DNA from: Ardenticatenaceae bacterium
GTDB taxonomy: Bacteria; Chloroflexota; Anaerolineae; Promineifilales; Promineifilaceae
Direction: 5' to 3'
Length of the DNA stretch: 64,000 nucleotides
Assembly: GCA_011525915.1 (NCBI GenBank)
Contig: WYBM01000015.1
Span: 372,001-436,000 of the forward strand
Positions 31,764 to 53,390 of this stretch are shown here, in pieces. The notes below the pieces were generated by a model. It was given only the letters and a program-made list of their open reading frames with translations, made no database searches and was not told the origin of the DNA. The position numbers and the translations under genes are program-made. How positions within the stretch are numbered: the first letter of the stretch is position 1; each line of letters begins with the position of its first letter.

Positions 31764-32063
31764 TTTCCCTCAGAGCTTAGGGGTTTTCAAGAATCAGAGA
31801 TTCTAACAAGTTGTTATAAGAAAGTATAACATATTTTGGCCGGTGATATTCAATACGCTGGTACAGTTTTCAGTCATCAGCAACCAGTTTTCAGTGCTGG
31901 CCTACCTCTGGAAATAGTCTGCTGAAAACGGATGACGGCCTTCTGATGGCTGGTACCGGTGGAATCGCATATTGACATTCACCGCTGGGTTGTTTACAGT
32001 GGGCGCTGTTGATACCAGCACACTTGGGCAGGGATGCCCTATTTACACAGGAGAACACAACTT
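31764..32063. other. 300-bp gene-free stretch with small hairpins and repeat A copy 2
   Basis: Upstream of the sensor kinase are two small inverted repeats: AGAATC-AGA-GATTCT (31790-31804) and GTTATA-AGAAAG-TATAAC (31813-31830). The second could be an operator or the AT-rich -10 part of the kinase promoter. The rest is the family A repeat and a short leader for the HU-like gene. I find no RNA gene here. Confidence 0.4.
31860..31957 (-). repeat. Dispersed inverted-repeat element, family A copy 2 (reverse orientation)
   Basis: Read on the minus strand it matches the other copies, with core TATTTCCAGAGGTAGGCCAG and ends related to GGTACCAG. It is more diverged at the tips than the 42055 copy. 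Confidence 0.75.
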
Positions 32064-32444
32064 ATGCCTGTCAAATATACGGTTATTACCAGACCCAACC
32101 CCCAAGATCCACAAAGCCCCCGCAAGTATTATCCCTCGTATGCCAGCAGCGGCCGTGTGAGCCAGCGCCAACTGGCCCGCCGCGCTGCCGAAATCTCTAC
32201 CCTTAGCCCGGCCGACCTGGCCGCAGCCACTGAGGCGCTGCTATCGCTTATTCCACAGCTATTGACTGAAGGCAATATCGTAGACCTGGGTGACTTTGGC
32301 ACCTTTCGCCTGACCATCCAGGCTGCTGGAGCAGACACGGCCGAGGCGGTTAACGCTCACCAGATCAAAAAAGTTAATGTGCGCTTTACACCTGGCAAAG
32401 AGTTTAAACAATCCTTGAGCCAGGTGACATTTGAAAAGGCTTAA
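32064..32444 (+). CDS. HU-related DNA-binding protein
   Basis: A 126-residue protein of the HU-related (histone-like, Bacteroidetes-style) family rather than canonical 90-residue HU. The N-terminus KYTVITRPNPQDPQSPRKYY is typical of that subfamily. It is followed by an HU-like helix pair (QLARRAAEISTLSPADLAAA) and the beta arm entry GNIVDLGDFGTFRLTI. It should bend or coat DNA. AGGAG before the ATG at 32064 supports this start over the ATG at 32034, which would add ten unlike residues. A four-unit 22-bp array lies just downstream. Confidence 0.8.
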   Translation: MPVKYTVITRPNPQDPQSPRKYYPSYASSGRVSQRQLARRAAEISTLSPADLAAATEALLSLIPQLLTEGNIVDLGDFGTFRLTIQAAGADTAEAVNAHQIKKVNVRFTPGKEFKQSLSQVTFEKA

Positions 32445-32498
32445 AGGGCATGGAGGCCACGGCCGTGGCCATGTGCCCAAACCATCCCTGATCCACCC

Positions 32499-32586
32499 TG
32501 ATAAAAGTACGTATTTGTGGCATGAAAAGTACGTACTTTGGGGCTAACAAATACGTACTTTTTGGCTGACAAATGCGTACTTTTTA
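32499..32586. repeat. Four-unit 22-bp array of TACGTA-centred sites
   Basis: Four 16-bp sites are spaced exactly 22 bp centre to centre: AAAAGTACGTATTTGT (32503-32518), AAAAGTACGTACTTTG (32525-32540), ACAAATACGTACTTTT (32547-32562) and ACAAATGCGTACTTTT (32569-32584). Units 1 and 3 are exact reverse complements, so sites face both ways. The regular two-helical-turn spacing suggests cooperative binding of a dimeric protein. It lies between the HU-like and VOC genes. Confidence 0.7.
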
Positions 32587-32642: not shown

Positions 32643-33062
32643 ATGAAACAGTCAATTATTCATGTGGCGCTGGTGGTGCGTGACTATGATGAAGCCATCG
32701 CCTTTTACTGCCAAAAGCTCCATTTTCGGCTGGTGGAAGACACCTACCAGCCAGAACAAGACAAACGTTGGGTAGTGGTAGCGCCGCCCGGCACCAGCGG
32801 CACCACCTTGCTGCTGGCGCGGGCAGCCACACCGGCCCAAGAAGCGTTCATCGGCAACCAGAGCGGCGGCCGTGTCTTTCTTTTCCTGCAAACCGATGAC
32901 TTCTGGCGTGACTACCATCATATGGTGGCCGTCGGCGTCGAGTTCGTCCGGGAACCCAAAGAGGCTCCCTACGGCACCGTCGCCGTTTTTGCCGATTTGT
33001 ATGGGAATTTGTGGGATTTGATCGAACCCAAAACACCAGCGGCACCTCCACAGCACACCTGA
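32643..33062 (+). CDS. VOC/glyoxalase-superfamily protein
   Basis: A 139-residue single VOC domain pair: HVALVVRDYDEAIAFYCQKL at the N-terminus and AVFADLYGNLWDLIEP at the C-terminus are the two beta-alpha-beta-beta-beta halves. Candidate metal ligands are His8 and the C-terminal Glu of DLIEP. Members include glyoxalase I, extradiol dioxygenases and antibiotic-resistance proteins; the substrate cannot be told from sequence. Upstream sequence includes the 22-bp array, which may be its control region. Confidence 0.85.
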   Translation: MKQSIIHVALVVRDYDEAIAFYCQKLHFRLVEDTYQPEQDKRWVVVAPPGTSGTTLLLARAATPAQEAFIGNQSGGRVFLFLQTDDFWRDYHHMVAVGVEFVREPKEAPYGTVAVFADLYGNLWDLIEPKTPAAPPQHT

Positions 33063-33754: not shown

Positions 33755-33855
33755 AGTGATCAGTGATCAGTGCCCAGTCACCAGTCCAGAAGAACACCCA
33801 ACTGATCACTGATTACTGATCACCGATTACTGATCACCGTTCACTTTAACACACC
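33755..33855 (+). repeat. Dispersed repeat family B, copy 2
   Basis: Shares the 37-bp block (33775-33811) with the 28714 copy at 34 of 37 positions, surrounded by repeats of CTGATCACTGATTACTGATCACCG. It fills most of the gap before the DDAH-like gene. Confidence 0.75.
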
Positions 33856-41950: not shown

Positions 41951-41957
41951 CTGTATT

Positions 41958-42042
41958 CAGTGTTCAGTAAGTCAGTGTTCAGTAAGTCAGTGTTCAGTAA
42001 GTCAGTGTTCAGTAAGTCAGTGTTCAGTAGGGCGGTGTTCAG
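41958..42042 (+). repeat. Tandem repeat, 15-bp unit, about five and a half copies
   Basis: CAGTGTTCAGTAAGT is repeated perfectly four times from 41958 to 42017, followed by a variant copy ending in AGGG and a partial one. Unit length is a multiple of three, so the array stays open in one frame, but I see no gene. It is immediately upstream of tatD. Confidence 0.9.
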
Positions 42043-50393: not shown

Positions 50394-53390
50394 ATGGAAC
50401 CCCAACACATAATCATTCGCGGCGCCCAGCAACACAATTTGAAGCATATTGATGTCTCCATTCCCCGTAACAAACTGGTGGTGCTCACTGGCGTCAGCGG
50501 CAGCGGTAAATCCTCTCTGGCCTTCGACACTATCTATGCCGAAGGGCAGCGGCGTTATGTGGAAAGCCTATCTGCCTACGCTCGCCAGTTCCTGGGGCAG
50601 ATGGAAAAGCCCAAAGTAGACGCCATCATCGGCCTCAGCCCGGCTATTGCCATTGAGCAGAAGGCGGTCAGCAAAAACCCACGCTCCACGGTGGGCACGG
50701 TCACGGAAGTAATGGATTATCTGCGGGTGCTTTTTGCCCGCGTGGGTACGCCTCACTGCCCGGAATGCGGCACGGCCGTGACCCCCCAATCGGCCCACTC
50801 CATTGCCCACCAGTTAGCCAAACTGCCGCCGGGCACAAAGTTCCAACTGCTGGCACCGCTGGCCCGTAACCGCAAGGGGACACACATCGACGCCTTGGCC
50901 CAAGCCCGGCAAGATGGCTTTGTCCGCGCCCGGGTCAATGGACAGCTGGTAGATTTGTCCGCTGACTTACCAGAACTGGACAAAAAGCGCAAACACAACA
51001 TTGAGATCATCGTAGACCGTCTGATGGTGCCAGACGGCCGTGATGATGCGTTTAAGTCACGGCTGGTGGACTCTGTAGAGACCACCCTGAAGGCCGGTGA
51101 TGGGCTGTTGATAGCCGACCTTGGTGACGAAGAGCTGCTTTTAAGTGAGCATAACGCTTGCCCCAGCTGCGGCTTTAGTTTCCCTGAGTTGTCGCCCCAA
51201 CTGTTTAGCTTTAACTCTCCTTTGGGCATGTGCCCAGATTGCCACGGCATTGGCACACAAATGCAGGTTGACCCGGACCTGATTGTGGAAGATGAAACCG
51301 TGTCACTGCTAGATGGGGCGCTGCGCTGGTATGGTAATGTGCGCAAAAAGAAGAATAAGTGGACCACCGCCCAGCTTAAAGCGATTGCTGAGCATTACCA
51401 GATCGACCTGGACACGCCCTGGCAGGCGCTGCCAGCGTCCTTTCGTCAGGCGCTGCTTTATGGGTCCGGCGATGAGGTTATCCACTTTAAGTATGGCCAT
51501 GACAATGAAGACAGCACCTGGACCGGCGAGGTCAAACGGCCGTTAAAAGGCATCATCTACCACATCAACCGCCTCTTCCACCAGACCAGTTCTGAGGCCA
51601 CACGCAAATGGTATGCCAGCTTTATGAACCAACGGCCGTGCCCTACCTGCGCTGGCACACGCCTGCGCCCCGAAGCCCGTGCCGTGAAAGTGGGCAGTAA
51701 AACCATTACGGACATCGGCAGTCTGGCCATTGATGAGGCGCACCAGTGGATTGTGGGATTGCACGGTCACTCGTATGCGGTAAACAGTGAGCAGTATTCA
51801 GTGAACAGTGAGCAGTATTCAGTAAACGGAAATGGACACGGCCGTAACGGCCGCACACCCCATGCGCCCCTGTCCTCGTCTTTATCTGAGGAGCAGTTTG
51901 AAATTGCGGCTGAAGTACTGAAAGAGATTCGTGACCGGCTGCAATTTATGCTTAACGTGGGTTTACATTACCTGACATTGGACAGGCCTGCCCCCTCTCT
52001 TAGCGGCGGTGAGGCGCAGCGCATTCGCCTGGCCAGCCAGATCGGCTGTGGATTGGTGGGTGTGCTGTACATTTTGGACGAGCCTTCCATTGGCCTGCAT
52101 GCCCGTGATAATCGCGCCCTGCTGGACACCCTGCACCAACTGCGTGATATGGGAAACACGGTGCTGGTGGTGGAACATGATGAAGAAACCATGCGTGAGT
52201 CAGATTGGCTGGTGGACCTGGGGCCAGGCGCAGGTGTGAAGGGGGGCCACATCATCGCTGCCGGCCCCCCTCAAGAGGTGGCCGCCCACCCGGAGTCATT
52301 GACCGGCCGCTATTTACGGGGTGAACTGGCCATTACAGCGCCTAACGGCTACGGCCGTCGTGTATCAGAGCTGCACATGCACCTTTCTGGCGCACGCTTG
52401 CATAACCTGCAAAGTGTCTCGGCGCGTTTCCCTCTGGGCACCATGATTTGTGTCACGGGCGTCAGCGGCAGCGGCAAAAGCAGCCTGATCTCGGAAACGC
52501 TAGAGCCGGCCCTGGCGCGGGCACTGAACAACGCTCAAAGCACCCCTGGCCCTTACGGCAGTCTTAGCGGTCTGGAACATCTGGATAAGGTGATCAACAT
52601 CACCCAAGACCCTATCGGCCGTACACCACGCTCCAACCCGGCCACCTACGTTAAACTGTTTGACCAGATTCGCCAGGTATTTGCCCTAACACCAGCGGCC
52701 AAAGCACGGGGGTATAAATCGGGGCGCTTCAGCTTTAATGTAAAGGGGGGCCGGTGTGAAGCATGCCAGGGGTATGGACTGCGCAAAGTGGAGATGCACT
52801 TTCTGGCCGATGTGTGGGTAATGTGCCGTGAGTGCAACGGCCGTCGCTTCAATCGGGAAACACTACAAATCACCTACAAAGGCAAAAACATCGCCGACGT
52901 ACTGGATATGGACGTGCAGGAGGCGCTGGAATTCTTCGAGAATCATCCCAAGATTCACCGCCAACTGCAAACTCTCCATGACGTGGGGCTAGACTACCTT
53001 AAGCTAGGGCAGAGCGCGCTTACCCTCAGCGGCGGCGAGGCGCAGCGCATCAAGCTGGCCAAAGAACTCAGCCGCGTGGCCACCGGCCGTACCGTCTATA
53101 TTTTGGATGAACCAACCACCGGCCTGCACTTTGCCGATGTGCAAAAGCTGCTGGATGTACTCCACCAACTGGTAGATGCAGGCAACACCGTCATTGTCAT
53201 TGAGCACAACCTGGACGTGATTAAAACGGCAGATTGGTTAATTGACCTGGGCCCGGAAGGTGGTGATGGTGGTGGGCAAATCATTACCCAGGGCACGCCA
53301 GAGGAAGTGGCTCAGGTGGAAGCCAGTTATACGGGGCACTTCTTAAAAACGGCGCTGGCATCACCGGCGGTAGCCGTAACGACCAGGTAG
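50394..53390 (+). CDS. uvrA: Excinuclease ABC subunit UvrA with repeat-derived insertion
   Basis: DNA-damage recognition ATPase of nucleotide excision repair. Two ABC ATPase modules: Walker A GVSGSGKSS at 33-41 and again near 689; signature LSGGEAQRI in both halves. Zinc sites CPECG, CPSCGFSFPELSPQLFSFNS...CPDC and CEACQGYGLRKVEMHFLADV...CREC are intact. At 998 residues it is about 40 longer than usual. The excess sits around residues 455-498, where VNSEQYS is tandemly repeated and followed by a low-complexity GNGHGRNGRTPHAP stretch. That insert precedes EEQFEIAAEVLKEIRDRLQF, so the domains on both sides are normal. SOS control is predicted from the upstream box. Confidence 0.97.
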   Translation: MEPQHIIIRGAQQHNLKHIDVSIPRNKLVVLTGVSGSGKSSLAFDTIYAEGQRRYVESLSAYARQFLGQMEKPKVDAIIGLSPAIAIEQKAVSKNPRSTVGTVTEVMDYLRVLFARVGTPHCPECGTAVTPQSAHSIAHQLAKLPPGTKFQLLAPLARNRKGTHIDALAQARQDGFVRARVNGQLVDLSADLPELDKKRKHNIEIIVDRLMVPDGRDDAFKSRLVDSVETTLKAGDGLLIADLGDEELLLSEHNACPSCGFSFPELSPQLFSFNSPLGMCPDCHGIGTQMQVDPDLIVEDETVSLLDGALRWYGNVRKKKNKWTTAQLKAIAEHYQIDLDTPWQALPASFRQALLYGSGDEVIHFKYGHDNEDSTWTGEVKRPLKGIIYHINRLFHQTSSEATRKWYASFMNQRPCPTCAGTRLRPEARAVKVGSKTITDIGSLAIDEAHQWIVGLHGHSYAVNSEQYSVNSEQYSVNGNGHGRNGRTPHAPLSSSLSEEQFEIAAEVLKEIRDRLQFMLNVGLHYLTLDRPAPSLSGGEAQRIRLASQIGCGLVGVLYILDEPSIGLHARDNRALLDTLHQLRDMGNTVLVVEHDEETMRESDWLVDLGPGAGVKGGHIIAAGPPQEVAAHPESLTGRYLRGELAITAPNGYGRRVSELHMHLSGARLHNLQSVSARFPLGTMICVTGVSGSGKSSLISETLEPALARALNNAQSTPGPYGSLSGLEHLDKVINITQDPIGRTPRSNPATYVKLFDQIRQVFALTPAAKARGYKSGRFSFNVKGGRCEACQGYGLRKVEMHFLADVWVMCRECNGRRFNRETLQITYKGKNIADVLDMDVQEALEFFENHPKIHRQLQTLHDVGLDYLKLGQSALTLSGGEAQRIKLAKELSRVATGRTVYILDEPTTGLHFADVQKLLDVLHQLVDAGNTVIVIEHNLDVIKTADWLIDLGPEGGDGGGQIITQGTPEEVAQVEASYTGHFLKTALASPAVAVTTR
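51780..51829 (+). repeat. 21-bp tandem repeat inside uvrA
   Basis: GTAAACAGTGAGCAGTATTC(A) and GTGAACAGTGAGCAGTATTC(A) are two consecutive 21-bp units, followed by a partial third. They belong to the CAGTGTTCAGTATTCAGT repeat family otherwise found between genes. The frame is kept. Confidence 0.85.

Follow-up and report, generated by a model that had tools for sequence, protein, structure and literature searches.

A recurring Chloroflexota unit of an HU-HIG gene and a 22-bp site array, often beside anti-phage genes, suggests a previously undescribed gene-control switch

A four-site array between two genes

The locus considered here raises the question of what an evenly spaced array of short palindromes does in the gap between two genes, and to which protein it belongs. 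It lies in a 64,000-nucleotide stretch of DNA from an Ardenticatenaceae bacterium ('the window', by which the whole stretch analysed is meant). Four near-palindromes of 16 bp each, separated by 6-bp spacers, span positions 32503 to 32584: unit 1, AAAAGTACGTATTTGT (32503-32518, + strand), unit 2, AAAAGTACGTACTTTG (32525-32540, +), unit 3, ACAAATACGTACTTTT (32547-32562, -) and unit 4, ACAAATGCGTACTTTT (32569-32584, -). An earlier, sequence-only reading had placed the unit centres exactly 22 bp apart, and the same centres were recovered (32510.5, 32532.5, 32554.5 and 32576.5). That reading had also described all four sites as centred on TACGTA, which held for the cores at 32508, 32530 and 32552 but not for the fourth, TGCGTA at 32574; with this one mismatch, the array consists of three TACGTA cores and one TGCGTA core. 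Over its 16 nt, unit 3 is the exact reverse complement of unit 1, and the sites thus do face both ways, as had been claimed. The pattern TACGTA-N16-TACGTA-N16-TACGTA, with at most three mismatches, occurred twice in the window against 0.01 expected from shuffles, and exact 22-bp TACGTA pairs or triples were found in none of 300 shuffles; the array is far beyond chance. It differs from a CRISPR array, where the direct repeats are identical and the spacers unrelated but similarly long, in its short near-palindromic and partly inverted units and its 6-bp spacers, and from a simple tandem repeat, in which all units share one orientation and core and flanks drift equally.

The array starts approximately 58 bp past the stop codon of the upstream gene and ends approximately 58 bp ahead of the ATG of the downstream one. 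The upstream gene (32064-32444, + strand, 126 aa), whose product is the proposed array binder, had been recognised as HU-related, and its family could now be given as HU-HIG (PF18291, E=1.3e-31; PF00216, E=5.7e-8); the PF18291 match scored 109.7 bits against a curated cut-off of 26.2 and covered positions 1-125 of 125, that is, the full length of the family. The protein matched solved HU structures weakly in sequence, and a single-chain structure model built from two sequences (mean pLDDT 39) was too poor for use. A sigma-70-like promoter, TTGACA-17-TACAGT (31972-32000, +; 10/12 in a consensus scan), is from its position likely to serve this gene. Between the gene and the array lies a 33-bp G+C-rich inverted repeat, GGGCATGGAGGCCACGGCCGTGGCCATGTGCCC (32446-32478), possibly the end of the hu transcript; no T tract follows it, and it is therefore not a consensus terminator. 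The first gene beyond the array (32643-33062, +) encodes a protein of the VOC/glyoxalase superfamily (PF00903, E=1.4e-22) and is a possible target, and a consensus scan detected no good promoter between it and the array. As a conserved partner of the array the VOC gene was rejected, since it was not present beside the other HU-HIG genes checked; the conserved partner is the HU gene. Other short tandem repeats occur in the window at 33801-33845, 41957-42042 and 51773-51827, with units such as TCAGTGTTCAGTAAG and ACTGATCACCGATT; they seem to be based on heptamer-like ACTGATC/CAGTNNN motifs, and similar tracts lie behind the second HU-HIG gene of the genome.

Linkage of arrays to HU-HIG genes in Chloroflexota

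The other HU-HIG gene of the source genome (contig C12) and the HU-HIG genes of related genomes were also followed by arrays with a period of approximately 22 bp, the cores of which were quite different (for example AAGTTCCCTTGAGAACTT, GAGATGTACATCT, AAATGCGCATTT, AATCACGGCGGTGATT, TCTAGCGCTAGA and ATGTGGTCTAAACCACAT). When the 300 bp downstream of HU-HIG genes were scored for all periods from 15 to 35, the periods obtained were 21 or 22, while upstream flanks were at background. Out of 31 Chloroflexota HU-HIG loci, 28 had a downstream 21-22-bp array by an automated threshold, and in the remaining three (L130, L131 and L169) an array was seen by eye. The 31 loci include a prospective set of 14 found by a class-wide search, 13 of which carried an array within 300 bp that scored above all 200 shuffles, every period being 21-22; at the fourteenth, three to four 22-bp units were seen by eye approximately 640 bp downstream, immediately ahead of a type I-C CRISPR-Cas operon. 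Among control genes 26 of 333 passed, mostly by way of the HU arrays or a known distal array themselves, and with these removed about 8 of 315 (approximately 2.5%, a hand count) passed. The window locus carries the module as defined here, a 21-22-bp-period array flanking an HU-HIG gene, and its array is one copy of a recurring Chloroflexota unit, in which an unusual HU-type gene has behind it an array of its own, with dyad sites approximately 22 bp apart.

Unit consensuses were mostly 60-100% dyad-symmetric, and many arrays contained units in both orientations. We regard it as very improbable that the arrays are functionless, neutral tandem repeats generated by slippage of a palindromic unit. 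The genome does contain other tandem repeats, and palindromes favour slippage, but slippage would not account for both orientations inside arrays, for cores that are conserved while spacers drift, for the retention of cores where HU proteins have diverged by 30-40% and flanks are no longer recognisable, or for a fixed 21-22-bp period across unrelated cores and its enrichment behind one gene family; this explanation is already largely refuted. Equally little probability is given to an RNA element, with the units forming hairpins in the hu 3' UTR as, for example, a terminator or decay element. The array is near the hu stop codon at many loci and its palindromes could pair; however, in approximately 13 of the 31 loci a separate inverted repeat or hairpin parts the array from the hu stop, which together with the occurrence of units in either orientation indicates that the element probably acts as DNA. 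Moreover, distal arrays occur without an intact hu, the units are short perfect palindromes without loops, the exact 21-22-bp spacing suggests helical phasing of DNA, and an Rfam search returned no family at or above its cut-off.

Core sequences and distal sites

HU identity was correlated with motif similarity (Mantel r=0.26, p=0.0002); taken as a whole the correlation is modest, and it comes from a few clusters. In the clearest comparison, four loci (L170, L172, L178 and L179) with HU proteins 60-71% identical had a common core, ACATTTAGAAGT; the arrays were the only DNA that aligned in the ±600-bp flanks, and their distance and orientation relative to hu varied. The two HU-HIG paralogues of the source genome had different array cores. 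By these sequence comparisons array cores appear to follow the HU protein, although linkage alone would yield some of the correlation.

Within the source genome, which comprises 7.46 Mb in 106 contigs, AAARTACGTAYTTTT was found at only three loci when up to one mismatch was allowed, so that the array was present elsewhere, as the sequence-only reading had proposed to check: besides the window array there was a second four-unit array with the same 22-bp spacing on contig C69, ending just before a gene for a cNMP-binding/SpoIIE phosphatase, and a solo palindrome of the same type on C43. Over all nine units, core columns were mostly identical in 9/9 and flank columns typically in 3-5/9, which bears out the earlier observation that flanks vary while cores are kept. 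Both distal sites (L001, L002; G000) adjoin a dispersed intergenic repeat of the GTAGGGGC type. The core of the second HU-HIG gene recurred as a 22-bp-spaced pair on C37. Likewise, the L170 core was also found at two distal loci in genome G163, one with a truncated HU remnant beside a DNA methyltransferase gene, and the L178 core at two distal loci in G149, one upstream of a type I restriction-modification (R-M) hsdM gene (gene identities at the C37, G163 and G149 sites were taken from reading translations). Distal cognate-core arrays at 22-bp spacing were thus found for both paralogues of the source genome and in G163 and G149, and each HU-HIG apparently has an address beside its gene and a few more at distal positions. 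The G163 remnant (L223/L194; G163:C8:94172-94252) belongs to a duplicated segment that comprises the 3' end of hu, the array and DNA downstream of it, and in this copy hu is reduced to its last codons, the four array units are intact and the methyltransferase gene adjoins.

The TACGTA array of the window was not found in five other genomes of the genus or in 396 genomes of the class. Read literally, this is the absence from related strains that the earlier reading had set against itself; however, three of the five genus genomes also lack an HU-HIG gene and the other two carry HU-HIG genes with arrays of other cores, and the absence becomes intelligible only once the HU gene is recognised as the linked partner. 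TACGTA as a general signal was rejected: a search for 22-bp-spaced TACGTA matched loci in Bacteroidota, Zixibacteria and Anaerolineales that had no gene in common, so what is invariant is the period and the HU linkage, not the core.

These comparisons bear on whether the array might be recognised by a different, unlinked DNA-binding protein, the HU-HIG gene being merely a common neighbour or a target. Arrays or sites without an HU gene alongside, on C69 and C43, in G163 and G149 and at a solo site in G003, would fit this, but HU-HIG was the sole gene common to all array loci compared, and the core goes with HU similarity, differing even between the two paralogues of one genome; we consider an unlinked binder distinctly unlikely. 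That the array has the HU-like gene as its partner, as the sequence-only reading had hinted, is well supported by the recurrence of arrays at Chloroflexota HU-HIG genes, the tracking of the HU protein by the core, and the distal cognate sites.

Neighbouring genes

The first gene downstream of the module was an R-M or CRISPR-Cas gene at 8 of 30 HU-HIG loci (GmrSD, type III, C5 methylase, Mrr, Cas3/I-C, type ISP, MmeI-like and Cmr1), compared with 1 of 57 genes further away (Fisher p=0.0007), an enrichment that is suggestive, given the small table, the classification of genes after they had been seen, and scoring libraries that differed in part between near and far genes. The first neighbour beyond the window array, the VOC gene, is not of this kind, and the neighbours in the Anaerolineales genome G418 were mostly housekeeping genes. 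The next gene was convergent in 8 of 30 loci, and the local array is therefore not always in a promoter. Downstream of one module, a gene (L138:10141-13056) encodes a candidate NLR-like defence protein, in which a trypsin-like protease is joined to NB-ARC and TPR domains.

Such neighbours could also mean that the arrays serve for landing or recombination, the HU-HIG gene and array marking an integration hotspot at which defence and other cargo accumulates, with HU as an IHF-like accessory factor. The cargo adjacent to modules is diverse and often consists of mobile defence genes, a tyrosine recombinase adjoins the array at L137, a Y1-type transposase occurs at L208, and the G163 duplicate places a truncated HU 3' end and an array beside a methyltransferase. 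Recombinases are not consistently near modules, however, many G418 arrays lie between housekeeping genes, and cargo is not bracketed by arrays, which leaves integration an unlikely explanation.

Proposed function

The reading we favour, and hold to be moderately probable, is that the array serves the HU-HIG protein encoded beside it as a multi-site operator or as an assembly site for a nucleoprotein complex, and regulates neighbouring genes; the binder, its cooperativity and the regulatory output are inferred. HU-family proteins are usually low-specificity DNA benders with little preference for sequence, which counts against this reading. The array would be a double-stranded DNA element belonging to the HU-HIG gene just upstream, each dyad-symmetric unit most likely being occupied by an HU-HIG dimer. 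A spacing of 21-22 bp, approximately two helical turns, would place the units on the same face of the DNA, so that neighbouring dimers could cooperate and form a compact nucleoprotein complex. Both the local array and distal arrays of the same core may carry such complexes, which would then control transcription of nearby genes, most likely by repression; in the source genome the distal complex would sit in front of the cNMP-binding/SpoIIE phosphatase gene on C69, and in other genomes the controlled neighbours would often be R-M or CRISPR-Cas operons. The sequence-only reading had suggested either an operator with several sites or a point of nucleoprotein assembly, and called it iteron-like. 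The first part gains support from the HU-HIG linkage, the tracking of HU by the core and the distal cognates, but the iteron comparison, which implies a replication or partition origin, does not: no replication or partition genes were seen among the neighbouring genes examined, and the several unlinked copies per genome lie in unrelated intergenic regions.

More tentatively, and with rather less than even confidence, HU-HIG proteins may be sequence-specific, fast-diversifying relatives of HU, each with a private multi-site DNA address beside its own gene, through which anti-phage systems of various kinds and some distal genes would be silenced or switched; they would be an HU-fold counterpart of defence regulators such as BrxR and RptR. 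If the pairing is true, an HU-HIG protein is expected to bind the array of its own module but not the arrays of others. An HU branch with many cognate arrays would be natural material for studying how the HU/IHF fold gains and changes sequence specificity, and would point to a new layer of control over R-M and CRISPR-Cas loci beyond model bacteria.

Comparison with known systems

A matched site array is not known to us from any account of the HU-HIG family, nor is a matched multi-unit array behind the gene of a BrxR or CapW regulator. No description of the HU-HIG/array pairing was found in the largely open-access literature searched, and novelty is accordingly likely rather than proven. The closest functional analogue is RptR, which binds TAGCTA direct repeats cooperatively in type I R-M defence islands (PMC12255303). 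Like the HU-HIG module, it combines a small regulator at a defence locus with several short palindrome-centred repeats, but RptR is an all-alpha protein of 79 aa whose direct repeats are 9 bp long, keep to one core, TAGCTA, and overlap the promoter of its own gene, whereas the HU-HIG module has an HU-family protein, 21-22-bp spacing, module-specific cores and an array behind the gene (in the window, 22 bp, TACGTA and downstream). The WYL-family regulators BrxR and CapW resemble it in that one regulator family accompanies many unrelated defence systems, but they are HTH-WYL proteins and not HU-family members (PMC9122601, PMC9122588). The nearest HU precedent is PG0121 of Porphyromonas gingivalis, which prefers a nearby 77-bp inverted repeat of the capsule locus over unrelated DNA (PMC3969353); there, too, an HU-type gene lies at a locus affected by its product, although PG0121 is a conventional HU of approximately 10 kDa, its site is one large inverted repeat and not a 22-bp array, and it binds distorted DNA most strongly.

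Arrays in other genomes

Among nine HU-HIG genes sampled from Bacteroidota, 22-23-bp arrays lay upstream of hu, clearly in three cases and as a borderline case in a fourth. HU-smalltalk-amidase loci of Bacteroides had no arrays and were rejected as members of the module. None of the viral contigs searched carried a TACGTA array, and only one held an HU-HIG relative; on this Mu-like contig the HU-HIG gene is followed by a 22-bp array, the last unit of which apparently lies between Bacteroidota-type promoter motifs of the next gene. No other locus hints so directly at an operator.

Two further genomes contained 22-bp arrays next to which no HU gene was seen. In the Bacteroidota genome of Porphyromonadaceae bacterium UBA7332 (G417; L062, L068, L085-L102), 147 RTACGTAY pairs were exactly 22 bp apart (control pattern, 0), with no HU-HIG gene found near them; in 355 kb sampled around the pairs, TACGTA spacings peaked at 22, 44, 66 and 88, and the sites lay in long intergenic regions, apparently more commonly between convergent genes. 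Anaerolineales UBA5796 (G418; L064/L103, L104) had a six-unit 22-bp array in which the core passes from TACGTA to TAGCTA, both halves of the palindrome changing together.
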